This document shows positions 20,388-53,795 of a DNA stretch of 64,000 nucleotides, piece by piece (the first letter of the stretch is position 1; each line of letters opens with the position of its first letter). This DNA is from Chloropicon primus. Taxonomy: Eukaryota > Chlorophyta > Chloropicophyceae > Chloropicales > Chloropicaceae. Below the pieces are notes generated by a model. That model saw only the letters and a list, made by a program, of their open reading frames with translations, had not been told where the DNA came from and did not search any database. Made by a program: the position numbers and the translations under genes. Location: NCBI GenBank assembly GCA_023205875.1, contig CP060756.1, forward strand, positions 682,001 through 746,000, given 5' to 3'.

Positions 20388-23300
20388 TTACATGGGATAG
20401 AGGTTCGAGGTCGTCAAAAGCGCTTCGTCGCTCGAGAGTATCCCCGCCCACCTCTCCCCCCCAGCCCGAAGCGTGCTCAGCATCTTGCTCATCGCGTCAC
20501 CCGTGCTCCCGTCCACGGCGTCCTTGTCCACCTTGGCCAAGAGACCCTCCATGGATTGCTTCAGAAGGCCGTAGGCGGCCGTCAAGTTGGACATGAGTCT
20601 CCAAGAGTTCCTTCCGTGCTTGTCGAATCCGAGGCTCGACTTGAATATGATTTCCTGCACGTAGGTGCTCAAGTTGAGGATTCGGCCAAACAGCTTCAAG
20701 AGGTCCCCGTGCATCTCGTGCTCATCGGCAGCGTTGCAGAGGCCCGCCGAGATATGTATCGACTGGATCTGGATACCAATGAGGGAGACGAGAAGGGAAT
20801 CCTTGAACGCGTCCGCGTTGCGCATCCTGCTCTCTGCGGATGGCAAAGAGATCAGGAGGAACTCGAGAAAGTAGCAGACGTTGGTGTACATGGTGTGCGC
20901 GATCTGAAAAGTGTAGCGGCTCGTCTTCACTTCTGCCCTTTCGGGGGTGTTCACGTACTTGCTGCTTCCCGCCATCGGTGCGACAGCCAGGCTCGTCCCG
21001 ACCTTGGGTCCCTTCGCGATTTCCGGCTTGACGGCGCCGAACCAGCCCTCCACCAAGATGGAGCCATCTTTGCCCTTGTGCAAGCTGACCTCCTTCTCGT
21101 CAAGCAATTGAGATTCCACGTAAAAGTATGGCTTCAGGGCAGGCTGGGCCGCATACACCAGGAAGATCACAACAGAGTCCTGCACGTTGACGATGCTGCT
21201 TGGAAGGGCCAAGTGCCACCTGCCCGCAAACTTAGACAGTGCATACAGGAGGAAGGCCACGTGTTTCACGATAACCAGCTCTCCCAGCTTCAACTTCCTG
21301 TCGTTGTTGGAGAAGGACGACAGCAGCGTCACGATATAAGGGTGGAGTTCGTCGGTCAAGGCCGAGGTGAAAACCCGGAGCGCGGCGATGCCGTCCGTTG
21401 AAGACATCAAGTCGGAACAGACGTACAGAAGAGTGCCCACCAGCTCCAACCAGCTGCACCACTCCGCAGAGCTGCTGTCCCCCCTCGACACGAGAAAGCT
21501 GGCGTACTTTATCAGCTGCCTGAAGGTGCCAAACTCCTTCCACCAATCTATCAGCGTGCTCGCCCCGGCACCGGTCTCTGCCAAGGATGCCGCAGTGACC
21601 AGCAGCATCGAGCGCAGCTCCGAGGGATAGGACTCCTCTCCCAGTTTGCAGAGCTCCATTTTGGCTGGGCTTTCTTCCAAGAGGGGTATCCAATCCCCGT
21701 GCGACATCTTCGGGGACAACCAGTCGTCGATGATGCATTTCATCACCAGCAGAGACGAAAGCTTCAGATCTTTGCTGGAATGGCAAAACGAGCAAGACAG
21801 AGAAAAGCTCTTCAGAACCGTTTCCATGCCGATGGAAACCACGCCTCCCGCTTCGCCCACGTTGGAGTAGACCGTGTGCAGCAAAGAGAGCAGCTTGATG
21901 CTCAGTCCCACACCAGAGTCACTTGTGTCGCTAGGGCTGCTCAACAGGAAAGTCAGCCAGTTATGCATCCACTCCGTGGACTCGCCCGTGGCGTAGAACA
22001 AGCTGTCAACCCAATCATCGTCCAGCAAATCGTGGTCCAAGCCAATCGTCAGTGCCGTGGAACAGACTTGAACCAGCGACTTGTTGAACGTGAGAACCAG
22101 CTCCTCTATCGGGCTGAAAGCCGTGAAGAGAGTATTGCAGACATCGTGGTTTGTGAGCTGCCCCAGCGACCAGTTCAAGGTTTCGACGGTATCGTCCAAG
22201 AACTTTGTCAGATCCAGACAATCGAAGTTCGCATCCTTTTGCTCTTTGGCGATGAATGCAATGCTGCTTGCGGCTTTTGAGAGACTCATTGCAGCAGCCT
22301 CGACTTGCGACTGAGCATTGATCTTTCTCACCAGGCTCTGTATTGCCTCTGTCTTCTGCATCGCCATGTAGTCTTGGGACAGGATGGAGAAATCGACTGC
22401 GAACTTCTCTGGGCCCAGCTCCTCGTATTCCTTCAACCACATCGAGTGCCTCGGCGTCCGAGATTCCAAGCAGCACAGGAAGAGGCGCTCCACGGAAGAC
22501 GAAAACTGCAGGCTTTGGTTCAGGTCCTCGGGCTGCATGGCAGAGATATCTTCTGGGAACTGCTCCGACCCCCTTGGAAAGTTTTCCTCCACGAATGTCA
22601 AAAGCGCCCTGATCCCCATGTGACTAAAAACGTTAGCAATGGAAGAGCTCTCCACAAGCAGGGATCTCAACTTGACCTGAAGCCTTTGCCTGGTGCTCAC
22701 ATCAATTTTGATACTGGCAAACTCCAGGATGATGTTTGAAAAATTGGTTTCGACCCAGCTCTTGATTGACGCAGCTCTACCTTGGTGCGCGCTGTAACCT
22801 CGCGAGGAGAGGAAGAACTCGTGGGCCAAGATGTTGAGGGCACACGCGTGAATTCTGCAGAAATAATCTTGCCCGAAATCAGAAAATTTGAAGGTCCACG
22901 CCGCGCCCAAAGAATTCCACTGCTGGGTGCTTGATGCCAATTCCTCTATGGTGTTCCACGAAGCCTTGTTCTCCAAAATGCCTTGGGTGATGAAAGACAG
23001 GCCTGAGACCCAAGCGCAGTCCAAGAACTCCAGCAAGGCGCAGTAAGCCGACGGCTGCTTTGTTCTGCACTCGTCGTTCACAAGGCACAGGCACAGGTTG
23101 CGTATCCACAAGCTCAGCAACTTGTTCTCGCTCCTGCTGTCATATCCAGGAATAATGACGGGGGGGAACGGGTACCTGACGTGAACCAAAAGCGTCAGAA
23201 ACTCGACTGTGCTCGTGAACAATTCCGGATTGCCCAAAAGACTCTCTTCGGACAGCGAAGACGCGACCACGTGCAAGAGCTTGGAGGATTCGGCTGAAGT

Positions 23301-26225
23301 CAAAGAGTAGGGATAGCAGCATTGAAGAAGCCCTATGTTGTCCAGACGGGAAGCAAGCCTCGCCACCCCCTTCATGACATCGAACGCAAGCTGCCTGGCG
23401 TTCAGGTCAAACTGGTACTCGCAATAGGAAGTCACGACTTTCACGAGACTCTCGGAGCCGCTCGGCATGAAATTCGAGACGATGCAAGGAAAGACGTCCT
23501 GGTTCAGACTATCCCTTTCCACCATAGCCAAGAGGCGGAGAAGCAGCTTTCCGGCTGTCTGAATGCAAGCCTCCATCTTTGAGGCAAGCAGGTTTTGTCC
23601 CTTTGCGTGCATGACTTCGGTTCTTGAGGCTTCGGACAAAAGCATCGATGACCTCATCACTATGGCGATAGAAAACTTGTTGGTCAAAAAGGAGTCCATG
23701 TCCTCTGTGAAGGAGGTTCTTCCCTCGGTCCAATCAAAGTCCCTCAAAGGGCGTTGATTCTGGACTCGCCTCATGCTATGCAACAGCTCGTATACCCTCA
23801 GGGAATTGTGAACAAGGTTCAGTGCTGCGGACACCAAATCAAGCCGCTGGTGAGCGAAAAGGAACGTCATCGTCTGGATATTCGACAGCACCCCAAAGGT
23901 ACCGAAGTACAGGTAAAGAGCAGACTCTGGCCCAAACACCGCTTTCTCGACGAGCGAGTTTGCGAGCTTGAGAAACGTTATGGTAAACTCAAAGCTTCCT
24001 GTGCTGACTTCGTTCCTGTAAATGTCGGCCACGGTTGGAATGCACTGGGCGGGGTCGGATAAATTTGATTGGGACACGGACCCTGCGCCCCCTACCACAG
24101 TCCTCAGCCAGCTGCCGATCAGCTTGGGGTCGCACGTGGAGACCGCCACCGCTAGATGGAGGCAGGACGACAGAACTCTGAGGCATACGTCTGCTTCTTC
24201 CTTCTTGGCATGCGCCAAGATGGTCTTGTACCTGTCAAAGATGAGGGCAGCGACATCCAACAACCTGATCTCGTTTTCGTTAATCTTCACCGCCATCAAC
24301 TCTTCCCAGTGATTCATGCTGTTTGTCAAGACCGAGCTCAAGAGCTTGAACGACAATTGAATCTCTTCTGAGTTTGATAGTATCTCCGTGGACAGCGAAA
24401 AGCTGTGAAGCCTGCTGAGAATCAGAAAGTACCCATCGATGTCAACCATCCAGCTGACAAGATATTTTGATTCCGAGCTGTCCCTCCCGTCGTCTTGGTA
24501 GTACTCAAGGACATTTCCAATAACCTTGTCGTCTAGAAACAGGCCGGGGCAATCAGGAAGCTGGTACACGCTATTCTTGACTATCCGCACTTGTCTTCCT
24601 ATTTGCAGGTGCATTCTCTCTTGCACCTGGTGCCTCATGTGCATTTCAGAGGCCGCGTCCATCAAATCCGAGGGGCTGTGGAACACGGACACGCTCCTCA
24701 AGTCTCTGAAGTGGTTCAAAACCTGGTCATTCACCAGGTTTGCGCTCGCCTCGTGCACCGCTTCGCACAGAGCTTGAAGCAGCCTCATGTACGGGATTGG
24801 CAGGGTCGGGAAGAGCTGCTGGCATTCTCCAAGAAAATTTCTTATTGGCTGGTCCAGAGCGTAATCTTCGTCCCAAAATTGTTCCACCAAAGCCGGCTCC
24901 CCGGAGAGCGTCATGACTAGGATAGACGTGAGCGCATCGAGCACGTTGTGGGGCAACCTCTTTGGAGTGAGCTCGAAGGCAACCAAAAGCGCAGAGGAAA
25001 AGTTCTTCAAGACGCTGTGGTACGCCGTCGAGTCGGTGCCCGATCGGACCACGTCATCGCTCAGGGCAAAGACGAGTCTGTCCAGGGCGCCGTGAGAAAT
25101 CGAGTTGGATGCCACTTGCTCGACGTTCGAGCCCACCTTGGCGTGCTTGGAGTTCAGCACGTGCTTCAGCTGCTGAGAGACCGCCCACACGAGCGTGAAG
25201 TGAGGCTGGCCAATGCTCTCGACTTCTGCGCCCGTCAGATCCAGCTCGTTCCACTTGGACAAATCAGGCTGCGCCTGACTCGTGCCGAGCGCAAGCATCT
25301 CCAGCAACCCATCCACGTCCAGCATCTCCAAAAAAATGAATACGGACGTGCTCAGCGTGCTCATCACGTTCTTCGCGGCGTCAGGGGACAGCGACGAGCT
25401 TATGGAGTCCAGCTGCATGTCGCAGGTGAACTTCACCATCTTGTCCAGATCCCCTTTGCAGGGCACGTTGTCCTCCTGGTAGTAAAAGAGGAATATCTGC
25501 TGTGTCAGCAGGAGCTGCTCCAGGGTCTGCTGCTCCGTCCAGTACTTTTGCAGCCCAACCTCGGCCGTCTTGTTTGGGCACCTGCCCAGACCCCCCTCCG
25601 TCTCCGTCTCCTCCTGGTACGCCGGCGCGAAGTGGTGGGACGGGAAATCGCTGACCGAGGCGTTCAGCGAGGACAGAGCCCTGTCCACCAAGCCCCGATC
25701 CATTCTCCCGACCACGTCCTTGAGCTGCAGGCTCTTCACATCCGGCTCGTCCCTCAGCTCGTTCCTGAGGACCTCCAGGACGCACTCCAGCAACGCCTGC
25801 CTCTCCTGAAAGTAGAACTCGCACACCTTGAACACCAACTCGGAGTCCTCCGTGCCCCTCCCAGTGGCCGAGGCATCCGACTTCCTGGTGCAAGCCTCGT
25901 TCGTTTCGTACTTGTGAAGAAGGACGTACGTTTGCACGGCATTCAGGTTCAGGATTTGGGACAAACCCAAAGCGAGGTGCTTCCTCGCCACGTCCAAGGC
26001 CTCCTGGCCCTCAGGAAACTTCAACCCCACATCCACGTGCCTCTCCGCTTTCTCCAACTCGACATACGACGCCTTGGTGAACCGCCGAAACTCCCTCGTC
26101 CCGTTCTTCAACCAAGGCTTCAAGTCGCACAAAAGTTCCGTATCCGTCACCTGCAACAAGTGAAGCTCCTCCCAGCAACTCCTGAACGACGTGCACGGCC
26201 ACGAAAGCCTTTCCCTCGTCTCCAT
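20388..26225 (-). CDS. NUP205: Nuclear pore inner-ring protein NUP205/NUP192
   Basis: A 1945-residue, almost wholly alpha-helical protein. The N-terminus (WEELHLLQVTD, LGLSQILNLNAVQTYVLLHKYE, FYFQERQALLECVLEVLRNE) fits the opening of the NUP205/NUP192 family: the LSQIL-L motif and the -RRALL- helix are the landmarks. No enzyme motif is present, and length matches the family (about 1700-2000). In the nuclear pore it scaffolds the inner ring with NUP93. I start at the ATG at 26225. The same frame is open further upstream through the GA repeat and into the TOM7 locus, but that extension overlaps TOM7 and is repeat-encoded. Identification rests on N-terminal motifs and size, so a related large nucleoporin (NUP188) is the main alternative. 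Confidence 0.78.
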   Translation of the reverse strand: METRERLSWPCTSFRSCWEELHLLQVTDTELLCDLKPWLKNGTREFRRFTKASYVELEKAERHVDVGLKFPEGQEALDVARKHLALGLSQILNLNAVQTYVLLHKYETNEACTRKSDASATGRGTEDSELVFKVCEFYFQERQALLECVLEVLRNELRDEPDVKSLQLKDVVGRMDRGLVDRALSSLNASVSDFPSHHFAPAYQEETETEGGLGRCPNKTAEVGLQKYWTEQQTLEQLLLTQQIFLFYYQEDNVPCKGDLDKMVKFTCDMQLDSISSSLSPDAAKNVMSTLSTSVFIFLEMLDVDGLLEMLALGTSQAQPDLSKWNELDLTGAEVESIGQPHFTLVWAVSQQLKHVLNSKHAKVGSNVEQVASNSISHGALDRLVFALSDDVVRSGTDSTAYHSVLKNFSSALLVAFELTPKRLPHNVLDALTSILVMTLSGEPALVEQFWDEDYALDQPIRNFLGECQQLFPTLPIPYMRLLQALCEAVHEASANLVNDQVLNHFRDLRSVSVFHSPSDLMDAASEMHMRHQVQERMHLQIGRQVRIVKNSVYQLPDCPGLFLDDKVIGNVLEYYQDDGRDSSESKYLVSWMVDIDGYFLILSRLHSFSLSTEILSNSEEIQLSFKLLSSVLTNSMNHWEELMAVKINENEIRLLDVAALIFDRYKTILAHAKKEEADVCLRVLSSCLHLAVAVSTCDPKLIGSWLRTVVGGAGSVSQSNLSDPAQCIPTVADIYRNEVSTGSFEFTITFLKLANSLVEKAVFGPESALYLYFGTFGVLSNIQTMTFLFAHQRLDLVSAALNLVHNSLRVYELLHSMRRVQNQRPLRDFDWTEGRTSFTEDMDSFLTNKFSIAIVMRSSMLLSEASRTEVMHAKGQNLLASKMEACIQTAGKLLLRLLAMVERDSLNQDVFPCIVSNFMPSGSESLVKVVTSYCEYQFDLNARQLAFDVMKGVARLASRLDNIGLLQCCYPYSLTSAESSKLLHVVASSLSEESLLGNPELFTSTVEFLTLLVHVRYPFPPVIIPGYDSRSENKLLSLWIRNLCLCLVNDECRTKQPSAYCALLEFLDCAWVSGLSFITQGILENKASWNTIEELASSTQQWNSLGAAWTFKFSDFGQDYFCRIHACALNILAHEFFLSSRGYSAHQGRAASIKSWVETNFSNIILEFASIKIDVSTRQRLQVKLRSLLVESSSIANVFSHMGIRALLTFVEENFPRGSEQFPEDISAMQPEDLNQSLQFSSSVERLFLCCLESRTPRHSMWLKEYEELGPEKFAVDFSILSQDYMAMQKTEAIQSLVRKINAQSQVEAAAMSLSKAASSIAFIAKEQKDANFDCLDLTKFLDDTVETLNWSLGQLTNHDVCNTLFTAFSPIEELVLTFNKSLVQVCSTALTIGLDHDLLDDDWVDSLFYATGESTEWMHNWLTFLLSSPSDTSDSGVGLSIKLLSLLHTVYSNVGEAGGVVSIGMETVLKSFSLSCSFCHSSKDLKLSSLLVMKCIIDDWLSPKMSHGDWIPLLEESPAKMELCKLGEESYPSELRSMLLVTAASLAETGAGASTLIDWWKEFGTFRQLIKYASFLVSRGDSSSAEWCSWLELVGTLLYVCSDLMSSTDGIAALRVFTSALTDELHPYIVTLLSSFSNNDRKLKLGELVIVKHVAFLLYALSKFAGRWHLALPSSIVNVQDSVVIFLVYAAQPALKPYFYVESQLLDEKEVSLHKGKDGSILVEGWFGAVKPEIAKGPKVGTSLAVAPMAGSSKYVNTPERAEVKTSRYTFQIAHTMYTNVCYFLEFLLISLPSAESRMRNADAFKDSLLVSLIGIQIQSIHISAGLCNAADEHEMHGDLLKLFGRILNLSTYVQEIIFKSSLGFDKHGRNSWRLMSNLTAAYGLLKQSMEGLLAKVDKDAVDGSTGDAMSKMLSTLRAGGERWAGILSSDEALLTTSNLYPM

Positions 26226-36015: not shown

Positions 36016-37836
36016 TTAGACGGTGAAGGGCGCCGACTCGTCGTACTCTGGCTTCTTTAGCCGCTGGATCAGATTGTCACCCCCGAACCTGAACTTGCTC
36101 ACTTCCGCGATGGCGATACGGATGCCGCCAACCGTCGTGCTCGTGTTGTCTGGATCGATGTAGTCGCAGCTATAGACCACGAGCACCCGATTCGGATTCT
36201 GCTTGTCTTGGATGGCCGTCGGGTAGTGCCACCGCTGCCACAGCGCTTCTTGGTCGATGTAGTCCGGCTGCAAGGACCCCTGATCGTGCCAAGTCTTCCC
36301 CTCGTCTTTGGACACCCCGACCCTCAGGTTTATCCTCCTCCTGTCGTAGGACTGGTGGTTATACGTGACGAGAAGATCCCCGCTAGCGAGCTTTATGAGG
36401 TTGAACTTCGAGTTTGGGTTCGGCAGCGCGTACTCCTCCGCTTCGGACCAGGTCTTCCCCCCGTCAACAGACCTGCTGCTGTACATGCTGCCCTGCACCG
36501 TCCTGAACAGCTGAAGCAGGCTCGTATCGGCGAGCTCCACCAAGGTGCCCTCGATCAGCCAAGTGAATGGGTGCGAAATGGTTTTCGACACCTCCCAAGT
36601 GTGCCCCTTGTCCGAGCTTATCAGCACACCGGCCTTCCCTTCGCCATCCGTGACGCATGTATCGGTCGCCTCGGCAGCGCCAGAGACCTCCTGCCACCAC
36701 GGGAGGACCAGCTTACCGCTGCTCGTCAAAATGGGTTGGTTCGCGATAACTTTCGGGATCCCGTGGTCGGCGTCCGTCTGGTGCAAGATCGCGGTCGGCT
36801 TGGTCCACGCTATGCCGTCCACGGATTTGACGTACTTGATGGCGCCTCCCGGCGACCACCTCTGTGGGACTTCCCGGCCCAGGTTGTCCTGCCTCGGGGG
36901 CCTCATGCACGAGACGCTCTCCGAGTAGAACAGGAAAAGGACGTTTCCCTCAAGGAACAGGACTGGACTCCACACGCACCCGCTCTCCCTCAGCGGGATC
37001 TCGAGGTGGGACGTCCATGTCCTGGCATCCAGAGACAGCGAGCAGCGGAAGTGCTGGTCGTCCGTCCCCTCGTGCCTGTGAGCCGTCTGCCAGCACGCGA
37101 TCCAGTTGAAGAGAGACAGCTTTGGCAAGGCAGATATCATTGCCATGTGGCTGTAGTGCGTCTTCCCCTCGTTCTGGTATACCCAATACTGGGGCAGAGC
37201 GTCGCTCTTCTCGTGGCCTGCCCTGTAAACGACCTCCTCGACCTCCTCCACGCCGTTCTCGCCCACCAGCTCGTCCCCCTGAATCTTCGTGGCGTTATAA
37301 AATATGGGCTTGTGGCCGTGCAGCTTGATCGCCCTTCCCTTCAAGACCTTCATCAGGAGGTCCTGCGCGTGCTTGATCTTCAGCGCGTCCTCCTCGCTCT
37401 CTTCCCTCACGACGATCTCGTCCAAGACCATAGCCTCCTCCTTGGCTATGCGCTCCATCTCAGTCTTGTTCATACTCACGAGCTCCCTCTCTATCTTCTT
37501 TAGCTGTTCCATCAGGATCTGGTTGTGTGTCTTGTAGAACTCCGCTTCCTCCTCGATCTTGTTCGTCGTCTCCACCAAGTTCTCCCTCTCCGAGTGGTGA
37601 TGCCTCGAGCGGCTCTCGATATCGGACCGGAGCAGACTCACATCCTCATTGGCCTTGGCGAGCTCCACCTCGGCCTTGTGCAGCTTGTCCCTCACCTTGT
37701 GGAGGCTGTCCCCCAGCAGCATGGAATCGTGCATAGCGAGAAGCCTGCGGTGGTGCTCCCTATAAGTGCACACGAAGAGCGCCAGGAACGCTACGAAGAT
37801 TGTGGCGTACACTCTCATGCTGTGACCCCTTGCCAT
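36016..37836 (-). CDS. Type II membrane protein with coiled-coil stalk and sialidase-like domain
   Basis: 606 residues, intronless. A short cytoplasmic tail and one membrane helix (VYATIFVAFLALFVCTY, about 9-25) are followed by a coiled-coil stalk (about 35-160) and a sialidase-like beta-propeller (about 195-600). The propeller carries three Asp boxes, SSDKGHTW, SVDGGKTW and SKDEGKTW, plus WSPVLFLEGNVLFLFYSES and WHYPTAIQ. This is the BNR/GH33-like fold of a Golgi-type protein. Green algae do not normally make sialic acid by the animal route, so the substrate may be another glycan (KDO-like or none). The catalytic Tyr/Glu pair cannot be judged by eye. The neighbours are also sugar genes. Confidence 0.8.
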   Translation of the reverse strand: MARGHSMRVYATIFVAFLALFVCTYREHHRRLLAMHDSMLLGDSLHKVRDKLHKAEVELAKANEDVSLLRSDIESRSRHHHSERENLVETTNKIEEEAEFYKTHNQILMEQLKKIERELVSMNKTEMERIAKEEAMVLDEIVVREESEEDALKIKHAQDLLMKVLKGRAIKLHGHKPIFYNATKIQGDELVGENGVEEVEEVVYRAGHEKSDALPQYWVYQNEGKTHYSHMAMISALPKLSLFNWIACWQTAHRHEGTDDQHFRCSLSLDARTWTSHLEIPLRESGCVWSPVLFLEGNVLFLFYSESVSCMRPPRQDNLGREVPQRWSPGGAIKYVKSVDGIAWTKPTAILHQTDADHGIPKVIANQPILTSSGKLVLPWWQEVSGAAEATDTCVTDGEGKAGVLISSDKGHTWEVSKTISHPFTWLIEGTLVELADTSLLQLFRTVQGSMYSSRSVDGGKTWSEAEEYALPNPNSKFNLIKLASGDLLVTYNHQSYDRRRINLRVGVSKDEGKTWHDQGSLQPDYIDQEALWQRWHYPTAIQDKQNPNRVLVVYSCDYIDPDNTSTTVGGIRIAIAEVSKFRFGGDNLIQRLKKPEYDESAPFTV

Positions 37837-48797: not shown

Positions 48798-50678
48798 ATG
48801 AGAATGTTTTCGCCTCGCTTGCGGGCCGCCGCTCTCGCGCTGGCCGTCGTCGTCGCAACGACAAGCGTCGTCGTTCACGTGGGGGCGCAAGAGGGAACCT
48901 CGGATGGAACCTCGGATGGGGCGTTTGGTTGCTCCAAGGCCGCCAACTGGGAGCACGTTTCGCCCATCCTGTGCCCCGTGGCCAAGATAAGGGTGTGCTG
49001 GAACGTGACCGACGAGCGGGAGCTCTTGCTGAGGGCGGAAGCCGCTGTCACGGGTTACATCCAGGTTGGTTTGATGGACAGGAACCTCGTGGGCTTCGTG
49101 GATGTTATGACGCTCTACGTGGACGAGCAGGGGGAGCCGCACGCGATCGACCAGTTCATCGGAGGGTTTGCCTCGTGGACCCATGCCGACCTTGTGACCG
49201 ACTCGAGGCAGGACGTGGAGGTGGTGGACGGGAGTGTGAAGACGTTCGATGCCCCATCCTCTGATGGGCACTCGAAAGGCACTTACACGAGCGTGACGGT
49301 CAAGAGGAAGCTCGTGACCGGCGACGTTGGTCGTGGCAACAACTTGTACTCCTCCCCGAAGGATTACATCATCGAGAGGGGCACCGAGTCCGGCCTCATC
49401 TGGATGACCAGCAGGTCCACAAAGCCCACGTTGGAGGGCGGCGAGGTCGTGGTGCCGACGTACGGCTACAAGTATCCGAACGGGAACAAGGGGACGTGGA
49501 GGGTGACTTTCGATGACTCTGAGTCCCAGCTCACGTGCGTGTACTACTGCAGGCTTCAGATGAACGTGTGCGGGGATTCTCAGGAGAAGGAAAGCCAGTT
49601 TACCAGCGAGGACGAGTGTCTCGCGCGGTGCACCCAGTACGTTTCGGAGGGCGCCTGGACTCTTGGGGACATCGTGACGGACCACAGCGTCCATTCCCTC
49701 GCTTGCAGGATCAACGCTGCGCACCAGGCAGAGAACGCGCCGGCCGAGGATGACGCGCTGAGGCAGGAGCTCTGCGACAACGCTGGCGTGAGTGGAAACG
49801 GCGTTTGTGGCACGCATTGCGAGAACTACTGCTCCCATGCTTCCCAGTGCAACGGGATGTTCCAGGACAAGACGCAGTGCCTTTCCACTTGCGACGGTGG
49901 ATTCGTCTCCTCTGAGGACCCCGCGGCCAAGGTGATGCAGGATGCTCGGTACGGCTCCGCAACGTTTCCGTTCTACGACACCGCTGCCTGCCGAACGATT
50001 CACGCCTCCCTGGCCTACGACAAGTTCTCCACAGGCGTCATGCCCAGCTTCCTGCTGTACGGAACCTATTACCGCTGCCCATTGGCTAGCCCGAACTCGT
50101 CGACTTGCTCAAACTCCACTCTGCCCACTTGCGGTTATTATTGCGAGTCTGTGCAGACGTCTTGCTCGGGTTCCAGGAGCCAGTTCGCCAATGTCCAGGC
50201 TTGCAAGTCTTGGTGTGAAGCGGAACTGGGTGCAGGCCTGGTCAAGGGGGACCTCACGGATGTCGGGGGGGAGTACACTTTGGGCTGCTTGTCTTACCTA
50301 GCCCAGCACGCCACGAGTGACGAGCTCTGCGCGGCAGCGAAGTCCGGTGGCTCGATCTGCCCGCCGCCGCAAAATGCCAAGGGCTCCACATCCTCCAACG
50401 CTCCGGTCCCTCCCACGAGCAATTACAGAGAGGGGTCGCAGGGGGAGGGATCGTACGGATCGGCGGTGAATCAGAGCGGGGGGGATTCTTCTTCTTCTTC
50501 TAAAGGAGGTGATCTCGGCGTCATCATCGGCGCCGCGTTGGGTGCGTTGGGCGCGACGATGATGGCCGCCCTGATCGTGAGGTACAGGACGAAACGGCAA
50601 AGGGTGTCGGCATTCGGATGCATGGGAATCAACGGCCCCCCGGCGCCCCGAGAGTTCGTCGATCTTGTTAAAGTGTAA
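48798..50678 (+). CDS. DOMON-domain type I membrane protein with three CX3C repeats
   Basis: 626 residues, intronless. Signal peptide at 1-30 (LRAAALALAVVVATTSVVV), then a DOMON-like domain (about 50-175) with ICWNVT-type opening VRVCWNVTDE (read KIRVCWNVTDE), GYIQVGLMDRN and MTLYVDEQG. DOMON domains bind haem or sugars outside the cell. Three Cys-rich units follow, starting near residues 248, 344 and 444, each CX3C (CVYYC, CENYC, CGYYC), another Cys, then a second CX3C (CLARC, CLSTC, CKSWC), spaced by 15-22 residues. A Ser/Gly-rich stalk, one membrane helix (GVIIGAALGALGATMMAALIV, about 572-592) and a basic tail end the protein. Surface or secretory location is inferred. It stops 19 bp from the GEX1 gene. 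Confidence 0.8.
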   Translation: MRMFSPRLRAAALALAVVVATTSVVVHVGAQEGTSDGTSDGAFGCSKAANWEHVSPILCPVAKIRVCWNVTDERELLLRAEAAVTGYIQVGLMDRNLVGFVDVMTLYVDEQGEPHAIDQFIGGFASWTHADLVTDSRQDVEVVDGSVKTFDAPSSDGHSKGTYTSVTVKRKLVTGDVGRGNNLYSSPKDYIIERGTESGLIWMTSRSTKPTLEGGEVVVPTYGYKYPNGNKGTWRVTFDDSESQLTCVYYCRLQMNVCGDSQEKESQFTSEDECLARCTQYVSEGAWTLGDIVTDHSVHSLACRINAAHQAENAPAEDDALRQELCDNAGVSGNGVCGTHCENYCSHASQCNGMFQDKTQCLSTCDGGFVSSEDPAAKVMQDARYGSATFPFYDTAACRTIHASLAYDKFSTGVMPSFLLYGTYYRCPLASPNSSTCSNSTLPTCGYYCESVQTSCSGSRSQFANVQACKSWCEAELGAGLVKGDLTDVGGEYTLGCLSYLAQHATSDELCAAAKSGGSICPPPQNAKGSTSSNAPVPPTSNYREGSQGEGSYGSAVNQSGGDSSSSSKGGDLGVIIGAALGALGATMMAALIVRYRTKRQRVSAFGCMGINGPPAPREFVDLVKV

Positions 50679-50697: not shown

Positions 50698-51915
50698 TCA
50701 AACTTTCGCGTTTGCGCTCCTGGTCGTCCTCTTCTTCTTCCTGGTTGGTGTGCTCCTAGTGATGGCCCTTTTGCTTCGTTCCTTGACCTCCGTGGACTCC
50801 AAGACGTGGTGAGCGGAGGCCTTCGCCTGTTGCAGAAGGCCGAGGATCTCCTTGATCTCGCTCCTCAAAGGTCCAAGATCCATGGGTGAAACCACGGGTG
50901 AGGCAACGTCACGTGGACTGTGGAACGTCAGGGCCAGCACCGAGAGAGAGGCAAACAGCATCTCGATGGAGTGCGTTCCGGTCCCTCCCAGCACGACGAA
51001 CTGGTGGAATATTACCATCATTGCAGCTAGCCGAAGGTTTTGCCGCCCGCCCAGCATCAGAAGAAAGGAGAAGGCCAAGAGGAGTGCAACCCAGTGCTGC
51101 CTCATCTGTCCGTAAACGGATCCTACCATCTCCACCTTTGCGGCGTACTCCTCCTGCATGCGAAGAAGCTGCGCGGAGTCCATTTGCAACTTCAAAAAGA
51201 ATTCTTCTGTTGCGTTTTGCTGGTCCAGCACCACGGAAGAGAGGCTCTGGACGCGCCCCCGGACCTCGTCTTGTGTCCTCAACAGGTCTCTCTCGTTCTG
51301 GAGAACCAACTTGGTGTTGCCAAAAGTCAGCTTACTGATGTTGTACATCTCGGAGAGGGGGGCCTGCAGACCATGAAGGCCGTGGGAGAGCTGCTTGCCC
51401 AAGGCCAGGCTCTCTGCCGCTCTCTCGAGGAGGGCCTCGGAAATAGATTTCGTATAGTCCTCGAAAGATCTTGCTTCCAGGCTGAAGCACACGGTATACA
51501 CGTGGATGCGAAACTGCGTGTAGGCGGCAAACGCGTTTCCCCCTCTCTTGCCGACGCGCTTGACGCACGCGTCGACGTCTGTCTCGACGTCACAAGGATA
51601 CCGCAGTCCTCCTTCTCTCAAGTGGCACGAAGTGAAGGCCAAAGCCAGGCGCGTGAGGTCCTTTTCCGTCCTGCTCGCACACGCGCGCTTCGTGTCACTC
51701 AAGGCCCTCGGCCAGCACGACCTGGAGGTCCGAAGAAACCCGAAGAACGACGACTGCCTCTCCCTCTCCGACTCCAACTCGTTCGCCGCTTTCTCTCGCC
51801 ATTGATCCAAGATGCTCTCTCCTTCGTCTTGAATGTCCAAGATGGGCGACTTGCCCGCTTCGACGAAAGAAAGGACGCAGGCGGCGACAAGGACCAGGAA
51901 TAGCCCTCGCGACAT
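50698..51915 (-). CDS. GEX1: Nuclear fusion protein, GEX1/KAR5/Brambleberry family
   Basis: 405 residues, intronless. A clean signal peptide (MSRGLFLVLVAACVLSFVEA) starts at the ATG at 51915. Residues about 65-145 carry the family cysteine pattern: CWPRALSDTKRAC, LALAFTSCHLREGG, YPCDVETDVDAC and YTQFRIHVYTVCF. A long coiled coil (about 150-275) follows, then two to three hydrophobic segments (HWVALLLAFSFLLML, AAMMVIFHQFVVL, MLFASLSVLALTF) and a very basic tail. This layout is that of plant GEX1, yeast Kar5 and zebrafish Brambleberry, nuclear-envelope proteins required for fusion of gamete nuclei. Known: karyogamy role across eukaryotes. Inferred: the alga can, or recently could, undergo sexual fusion. 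The gene shows no break. Confidence 0.85.
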   Translation of the reverse strand: MSRGLFLVLVAACVLSFVEAGKSPILDIQDEGESILDQWREKAANELESERERQSSFFGFLRTSRSCWPRALSDTKRACASRTEKDLTRLALAFTSCHLREGGLRYPCDVETDVDACVKRVGKRGGNAFAAYTQFRIHVYTVCFSLEARSFEDYTKSISEALLERAAESLALGKQLSHGLHGLQAPLSEMYNISKLTFGNTKLVLQNERDLLRTQDEVRGRVQSLSSVVLDQQNATEEFFLKLQMDSAQLLRMQEEYAAKVEMVGSVYGQMRQHWVALLLAFSFLLMLGGRQNLRLAAMMVIFHQFVVLGGTGTHSIEMLFASLSVLALTFHSPRDVASPVVSPMDLGPLRSEIKEILGLLQQAKASAHHVLESTEVKERSKRAITRSTPTRKKKRTTRSANAKV

Positions 51916-52046: not shown

Positions 52047-53795
52047 TCATCGGAAGAGAACTCGGACCGGAATTCCCTCCAAGCCGAAGGAGTTTTGTAT
52101 GGCCCCCACGAGGAACTTTGCCACGGAGTTGGGCACGTTTTCCTTCTTCTTCTTGCTACCGCTGAGGAAGAAGGCGAAAGTCGGCGGCCTCGCTTTCACT
52201 TGGGTGACGTACCTTACGCTGTTCAGGATCGACGTTGGGCCCCCGCCGTGGTGAAAGTGCTTCAAGTCCTGGAGCCAGTCGTTCAAGTGAGAGGTCTGGA
52301 TTCTATCCTGCCACTTGTCGTACGTCTCCGCGACGGCGGGAAACAGGAAGCCCATGCCCAGCCCGGTCTTGGCGGACACTGGGATGCACTTCACGCCCTG
52401 GTAGTTCTGGAGGCCTTCGTTCAGGAACTTGTTCACGATTTCCCTCTCCTCCGGGGACTTTCCGTCCACCAGGTCCATCTTGTTCGCGAGGACGATCAAC
52501 GGCCTCCCGTGCCGCAGAGCGTTCGCAGCAATCGTCGCCTCAAAGTGAGTCAGGTAGGAGGAAAGTGCCGTGCCCCCGGCCAAGAGCTTGGAAACGTCGA
52601 CGAGAAGGACCACTATGTGCGCGAAGTGGACCGCCCTCTCGGCCTCCTCGTTCGCCTGCCCGGCCACCTGGCCTCCGAGATCGTCGTAGTGCTCGAACTT
52701 GCTGCTCCTCACCCTTCCCGCGGTGTCCACCACCGTGAACTGCCTCCCCTCCCAGGCGCAGTCCGCCTCCACCGAGTCCCTGGTGAGACCCGGCTTGGGC
52801 CCCGTCAGCACCCTGTCGAAGCCCAGGATCCTGTTCATCAACGTCGACTTGCCCACGTTGGGCCTGCCCGTGATGGCGACCCGGATGCTCCTCCCGTGCG
52901 TCTCCGCAGCTCCGGCCTCCAGGCTGGCTGGGAAAGAGATGCGGAGAGCGTGGTAGAGGTCCGACATGCCTTCCCCAGTCTCCGCGGAGATGGACACGCC
53001 CTCCCCGAACCCCAAGGAGCACGCCTCAGCATTGGTGGCGTCGATCTCCCCCAAAAAATCCCTCGAGAACAACCCCTCGCACTTGTTCAGGACGACCCTG
53101 ACCCTGCCCTCGCGCATCATCTCCTCAGACGCGTTCCTGCGCAGCCACCTGGCCAGCGCAAAGTCCGGCTCGGAGAGGCCGTGCCGCCCATCGACCACGA
53201 AGAGGGCCACGTGGCTCCTCCGAAGCGTATCCCGGACGATGGACCCCAAGTTGTTCTCCAGGAGGGGCGTGTCTTCCAGCGACTGCCAGAACCTCTCGTC
53301 GTTGTGCCCCGCCGTGTCGAAGACGTGGAACCGCAAGTCTCCGAGGGTTCCCTTGCCCTCGATGACATCCCGGGTCACGTGCCCCCCGGGCGTGTTCATC
53401 GTTATCGCAGTCTTCCTCCCGCTCCCCTTCCTCCCGCTCTTCGTCGTCAGCCTGTTGAACAAGGTCGACTTGCCGACATTGGGCTGGCCCAGCAGAATCA
53501 CCCTCGGCTTCTCCGCTGCCGCTGCAGAGGCCTCTCCCCCATGATCGACCCCCCCGCTCCTCCCCCTCGCCGCCAGCCACCAACCCACCGTCCACTTCTT
53601 ACCGGCAAAACCGCTTCCCGCGGTGGTGGTGGTGGTGGGGATCCCGCTGCCCAGACCGGCAGGCCAAAACGAGGACGCCGCCTGGTGACCACCGCCGAAC
53701 GAGGTCCCGAGAACCGATCTGAGGAGGACCACCCCGCAGCCGCCCGAGGCCATCGAAGACGACCACCACCGCGCCACCCCACGCGTCGTCGCCAT
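52047..53795 (-). CDS. DER: Der (EngA) double GTPase, organellar
   Basis: 582 residues, intronless. Two Era-like G domains in tandem: the first with VILLGQPNVGKSTLFNRL (about 104), FDTAGHNDERF and LNKCEG; the second with RVAITGRPNVGKSTLMNRI (about 294), VVDTAGRVR and LANKMD. A C-terminal KH-like domain follows (HHGGGPTSILNSVRYVTQVK, FAFFLSGSKKK). Der assists assembly of the large ribosomal subunit in bacteria and plastids. The N-terminal 95 residues are Arg/Ser/Gly-rich with no G motif and are probably a plastid or mitochondrial targeting peptide. In the first domain the TAG loop reads HNDERF, an unusual variant. Tandem with GEX1 on the same strand, 131 bp apart. Confidence 0.95.
   Translation of the reverse strand: MATTRGVARWWSSSMASGGCGVVLLRSVLGTSFGGGHQAASSFWPAGLGSGIPTTTTTAGSGFAGKKWTVGWWLAARGRSGGVDHGGEASAAAAEKPRVILLGQPNVGKSTLFNRLTTKSGRKGSGRKTAITMNTPGGHVTRDVIEGKGTLGDLRFHVFDTAGHNDERFWQSLEDTPLLENNLGSIVRDTLRRSHVALFVVDGRHGLSEPDFALARWLRRNASEEMMREGRVRVVLNKCEGLFSRDFLGEIDATNAEACSLGFGEGVSISAETGEGMSDLYHALRISFPASLEAGAAETHGRSIRVAITGRPNVGKSTLMNRILGFDRVLTGPKPGLTRDSVEADCAWEGRQFTVVDTAGRVRSSKFEHYDDLGGQVAGQANEEAERAVHFAHIVVLLVDVSKLLAGGTALSSYLTHFEATIAANALRHGRPLIVLANKMDLVDGKSPEEREIVNKFLNEGLQNYQGVKCIPVSAKTGLGMGFLFPAVAETYDKWQDRIQTSHLNDWLQDLKHFHHGGGPTSILNSVRYVTQVKARPPTFAFFLSGSKKKKENVPNSVAKFLVGAIQNSFGLEGIPVRVLFR

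Follow-up and report, generated by a model that had tools for sequence, protein, structure and literature searches.

Within a window of 64,000 nucleotides (contig 3, bases 682001–746000, of the 17,584,162-base, 20-contig genome of Chloropicon primus RCC138), the minus strand carries at positions 50698..51915 an open, single-exon gene whose sequence places it in the GEX1/KAR5 family. The coding sequence runs from an ATG at 51915 to a TGA at 50700..50698 and reads through 405 codons without any internal stop and without requiring an intron, encoding a protein of 405 amino acids (P0001). Upstream, the frame remains open as far as another ATG at 52050, which would give a 450-residue form; the ATG at 51915 is the likely start, because a hydrophobic leader follows it directly and the EngA-like frame next to it terminates at 52047. 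A codon usage model built from the two genes adjoining this one scores the sense frame at 0.18 bits per codon; the other five frames range from −0.72 to 0.04.

Residues 1–20 (51856..51915) form the N-terminal hydrophobic leader, a likely signal peptide according to the Kyte-Doolittle hydropathy heuristic (mean 1.92 across residues 4–22). This is followed by a cysteine-rich domain (residues 66–146, 51478..51720), delimited by alignment and by the AlphaFold model, which contains six cysteines (C67, C79, C97, C108, C117 and C143), the only ones outside the leader, where a seventh (C13) lies. The model is mostly helical, with a mean pLDDT of 65.1, and within it the block of residues 71–150 reaches pLDDT 80–93. 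Long helices of low confidence come after this domain, suggesting a helical, probably coiled-coil region (residues 150–272, 51100..51468). Three closely spaced hydrophobic stretches (residues 276–294, 294–312 and 313–331, 50923..51090) have Kyte-Doolittle means of 1.52, 1.52 and 1.27, compared with the usual 1.6; membrane segments two and three of Arabidopsis GEX1 (At5g55490, P0002) likewise fall below that value (1.56 and 1.58). Translation and model place a C-terminal helix (residues 348–387) and a basic tail at 50701..50874.

Membership of the GEX1/KAR5 family

In the relevant passages of the literature, the family is defined by a signal sequence, a six-cysteine Cys-rich domain, coiled coils and C-terminal membrane segments, of which there are three in GEX1 and two in Kar5 and Brambleberry (PMC7586128, PMC10609895). 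P0001 has the signal sequence, as judged by hydropathy only, and the six-cysteine domain; the helical region and the three hydrophobic stretches are present, but weak or judged by heuristics.

Searching with an Arabidopsis GEX1 bait returned 331 proteins, and a profile was built from the best 120 of these, whose names are those of land plant (angiosperm) GEX1 proteins. With this profile P0001 reaches 25.8 bits (E 1.6e-6 at a size of 10,000 sequences), in an alignment extending to residue 271, whereas the best decoy among 500 shuffles, one reversal and 400 other window frames reaches 2.7 bits; when all 401 window frames were included alongside the same shuffles and reversal, just one further match exceeded 3 bits, namely the extended 450-residue version of this frame. 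A shortened profile retrieved 100 proteins: P0001, plant proteins and fragments, many short proteins bearing no name, and in last place a GEX1 family protein of 483 amino acids (P0219). Because the query of that search included P0001, P0219 was re-scored with the plant-only profile, which it matches at 76.5 bits across both the cysteine domain and the membrane part. A profile combining the 120 plant sequences with P0219 scores P0001 at 38.8 bits (E 1.6e-10), and BLASTP between P0219 and P0001 gives E 5e-11 as a single pairwise comparison. A six-frame search of the whole genome with P0219 yields a single match, the Chloropicon gene itself (E 3.9e-8), and no second GEX1/KAR5 copy was found in the genome search. 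All six cysteines of P0001 align with those of 23 of the 120 retrieved plant GEX1 proteins and with those of P0219. At the level of sequence, these results confirm that the Chloropicon gene is a real, very divergent member of the family.

Searches starting from P0001 alone returned little: a protein database search gave only the self-match (two member sequences) and no congener, and a PDB sequence search gave nothing at E ≤ 10. A PDB fold search with the model produced no match at E ≤ 0.001 among 96, as expected for a mostly helical model of low confidence.

The family and the open, undamaged state of the gene had both been proposed in an earlier sequence-only reading of this DNA, and both claims hold. 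The features it had cited fared unevenly: the cysteine pattern and the leader, by hydropathy, are borne out, while the coiled coil and terminal segments correspond to low-confidence helices and to stretches of modest hydropathy. The profile search that it had proposed as a check was positive with the plant-type GEX1 profile and negative with the Kar5/Tht1 model of Pfam.

Neighbouring genes and sex genes elsewhere in the genome

An EngA-type GTPase gene (52050–53795, minus strand) adjoins the GEX1/KAR5 gene on one side. On the other, a convergent frame (48798–50675, plus strand) encodes a protein with many cysteines, a C-terminal hydrophobic stretch and a weak DOMON match (26 bits, under the Pfam cut-off). 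A Pfam scan covered 23 of the 25 listed single window frames of at least 230 amino acids, a scope that intron-split genes escape, and found mostly housekeeping functions (APC1, a cyclin, a topoisomerase, a phosphomutase, an M18 peptidase, Leo1 and others), several frames having no match. No RWP-RK domain was detected in these 23 frames, where one in an intron-split gene would be missed. The window also holds a 1945-residue open frame (20391–26225, minus strand) for which Pfam gives nothing at E ≤ 0.001, and a sialidase-like BNR protein (36019–37836, minus strand); nine sialidase and 59 sialyltransferase genes are described for C. primus in the relevant part of Lemieux et al. 2019 (PMC6731263).

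The sequence-only reading took its host to be an alga with few signs of known sex, a view outdated since 2019, when this species was described as having meiosis and flagellar genes and, probably, sex. The relevant passages of Lemieux et al. 2019 (PMC6731263) report SPO11-2, DMC1, RAD51C, XRCC3, MSH4 and MSH5, the expression of which is nil or very low in vegetative cells, together with an almost full flagellar gene set and a genome that is diploid and heterozygous, and propose that sex occurred in the past or has been retained. As that reading had stated, sex itself has never been seen, and this holds for the whole class Chloropicophyceae according to passages of the same paper and of Turmel et al. 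2025 (PMC12301720). The latter leaves undecided, in the part concerned, whether gamete fusion and meiosis or endoreplication link the haploid and diploid states of Chloropicon. Trisomic chromosomes and a proposed loss of heterozygosity in C. primus are also described in these sources (PMC6731263, PMC12301720). The main texts of the two papers contain none of the words HAP2, GEX1 and karyogamy, and the literature searched contained no mention of GEX1 for Chloropicon; supplementary tables and Ning et al. 2013 lie outside this scope, so an earlier record is possible. Relevant passages of an Auxenochlorella paper describe GEX1 and HAP2 in Auxenochlorella and contain no GEX1 for Chloropicon, and a Cyanidiophyceae paper has GEX1 only within its reference list.

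Among the partner genes named in the sequence-only reading, the present analysis detected MND1, HOP2 and genes of the SPO11 type, DMC1 is known from the relevant part of the 2019 literature only, and no credible HAP2 was seen in searches of weak power. In genome profile searches, MND1 is matched at E 6.2e-18, with the first ten profile positions unmatched, perhaps owing to a split exon, and HOP2 at E 1.5e-17, in a 232-residue frame starting with ATG. There are two genes with a TP6A_N (SPO11-type) domain, on contigs C2 (L017) and C18 (L018). The one on C18 has topoisomerase VI A as its best match and also matches SPO11 (8urq, E 8.3e-9), and is apparently of the meiotic SPO11 type; the one on C2 is presumably closer to the TOP6A/SPO11-3 type. 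Two HORMA genes are present, one of which (C1:793008) matches HORMAD1, while the other (C1:531182) we take to resemble MAD2. Two Rad21/Rec8_N loci complete the set, and all of the sex genes examined have open frames except one of these loci. This locus (L022, C12:339735–339974) has a match of E 3.8e-29 and an in-frame TAA within the matched stretch, which possibly marks an intron.

HAP2 was sought across the whole genome with the Pfam model, a motif scan and a Chlamydomonas HAP2 fragment. The Pfam model gives one match (C6:233038–233223, 12.2 bits, the cut-off being 27.4), located in a 201-residue Arg/Pro-rich frame (L001 1390–1992, minus strand) that lies antisense to the beginning of a gene for an FAD-dependent oxidoreductase (PF12831, E 1.6e-46). 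Taken alone, this frame scores 15.4 bits against the HAP2 profile (E 0.007), covering 49 of 515 profile positions. This sub-threshold match was rejected as probably due to chance, without proof. The motif G-[FY]-C-C-x-C occurs 11 times, compared with 25 times for a backward control, and none of the 11 frames looked HAP2-like on inspection by eye. The Chlamydomonas fragment has no match in the genome, an empty result that is uninformative for such a search. These misses carry little weight, because Arabidopsis GEX1, searched likewise, missed the GEX1/KAR5 gene described here. A C. primus that retained GEX1 and the meiotic toolkit and lost HAP2, its gametes fusing by another fusogen or two nuclei arriving in one cell by another route, seems unlikely to us, karyogamy and meiosis without HAP2 resting on a weak absence.

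A probable role in nuclear fusion

We consider the best explanation of these data, with a probability of roughly 0.8, to be that C. primus has an intact GEX1/KAR5 family gene acting in nuclear membrane fusion after mating. Family membership and the open frame are seen in the sequence; where the protein lies, its topology, when it is made and its part in karyogamy would follow by analogy with the relatives in Arabidopsis, yeast, zebrafish, Chlamydomonas and Plasmodium, and a present-day sexual cycle in C. primus is suggested in turn. The protein would be produced during the mating phase, and its signal peptide would take it into the endoplasmic reticulum and the nuclear envelope, where the six-cysteine domain may fold within the lumen that separates the two nuclear membranes. 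The helical region may mediate oligomerisation and the C-terminal hydrophobic stretches may serve as an anchor. Once two haploid cells have fused, the protein would be required to complete the fusion of the nuclear membranes.

Several results weigh against this explanation. Identity of P0001 is 16–20% to plant proteins and about 25% to P0219, and significant alignment is limited to the cysteine domain and the adjoining helix. The Pfam Tht1/Kar5 model (PF04163) has no match to P0001 at E ≤ 10, nor any in the whole genome, where a control gave none either. Apart from P0052, with kinase-type domains, the 120 listed plant GEX1 matches have no precomputed Pfam domain, from which it follows that PF04163 does not define the plant-type branch. 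Arabidopsis GEX1 alone misses the locus in the genome, its best match (E 2.43) being at another place, and hhalign based on the single sequence gives a probability of only 42%, though with E 0.00026. The C-terminal hydrophobic stretches are weak, the codon score is modest (0.12 for the 450-residue form, the second lowest among the 25 listed window frames) and HAP2 was not found. Moreover, members of the family also work outside gamete fusion: zebrafish Brambleberry acts as well in the fusion of karyomeres in the early embryo, and Arabidopsis GEX1 in that of the polar nuclei, as stated in passages of PMC7586128 and PMC10609895, which contradicts the claim of the sequence-only reading that the family is used only for the fusion of gamete nuclei.

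This last point gives substance to a different account, in which a true GEX1 has been kept for another nuclear-envelope task, such as mending the envelope or re-forming a single nucleus when mitosis has been irregular, or for a parasexual cycle that lacks meiosis, and so has little bearing on sex. The trisomic chromosomes and the loss of heterozygosity that has been proposed, which indicate a good deal of asexual growth in culture, would also fit. We regard this account as quite unlikely, since the family members of Arabidopsis, yeast, Chlamydomonas and Plasmodium are reported to be expressed in connection with the reproductive phase (relevant passages of PMC7586128), and MND1, HOP2 and the HORMAD1-like gene are also there with open frames. 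It is improbable, too, that the gene is a relic of past sex, its frame still open after selection has gone: the lack of observed sex in the class and a codon score low among the listed window frames would suit a relic, but 405 stop-free codons, with the best codon score in the sense frame, the retention of six of six cysteines despite very low overall identity and the open frames of the remaining sex genes, bar the Rad21/Rec8_N locus, argue otherwise. Conservation of the cysteine pattern at 16–25% identity implies long selection in the lineage. The sequence-only reading overstated the case in taking an undamaged gene to imply selection for a sexual cycle; selection is inferred here from the open frame and the conserved cysteines. 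A chance resemblance to GEX1 in an unrelated membrane protein that is secreted and helical and contains cysteines, as the negative Pfam and fold searches and the low identity would allow, is already disfavoured and very improbable, given that the profile, intermediate-sequence and whole-genome tests all indicate this gene and that cysteine order and spacing agree with GEX1.

If the gene acts in nuclear fusion after mating, it adds that step to the gene inventory and bears on the choice between gamete fusion and endoreplication, as meiosis genes argue for a decrease in ploidy and a karyogamy gene for an increase through the fusion of two nuclei. In this tiny, abundant marine alga, where sex has escaped observation, induction of GEX1 could serve as a marker of the mating phase. 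What is new is a divergent GEX1/KAR5 member in a lineage with previously proposed cryptic sex, a modest addition that overturns nothing, because cryptic or past sex in C. primus was proposed already in 2019.

Comparison with known systems

Plant GEX1, represented by the Arabidopsis protein and its angiosperm orthologs, shares with P0001 the leader, the six-cysteine domain in identical order and with near-identical spacing, the helical region and three C-terminal hydrophobic stretches. The Chloropicon protein differs in its length of 405 compared with about 590 amino acids, its shorter helical region and its weak, tightly spaced hydrophobic stretches. P0219 also has six N-terminal cysteines (spacing 12-18-12-9-23) and has RLALAFT-x-C and YPC in common with P0001, but possesses a long C-terminal tail with acidic stretches and stronger hydrophobic stretches. 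Fungal Kar5/Tht1 and zebrafish Brambleberry, published as members of the GEX1 family with a Cys-rich domain, are likened here by published description only, and according to the relevant passages Kar5 and Brambleberry have two transmembrane segments where GEX1 has three; the Pfam Tht1 profile, as noted above, does not match P0001.
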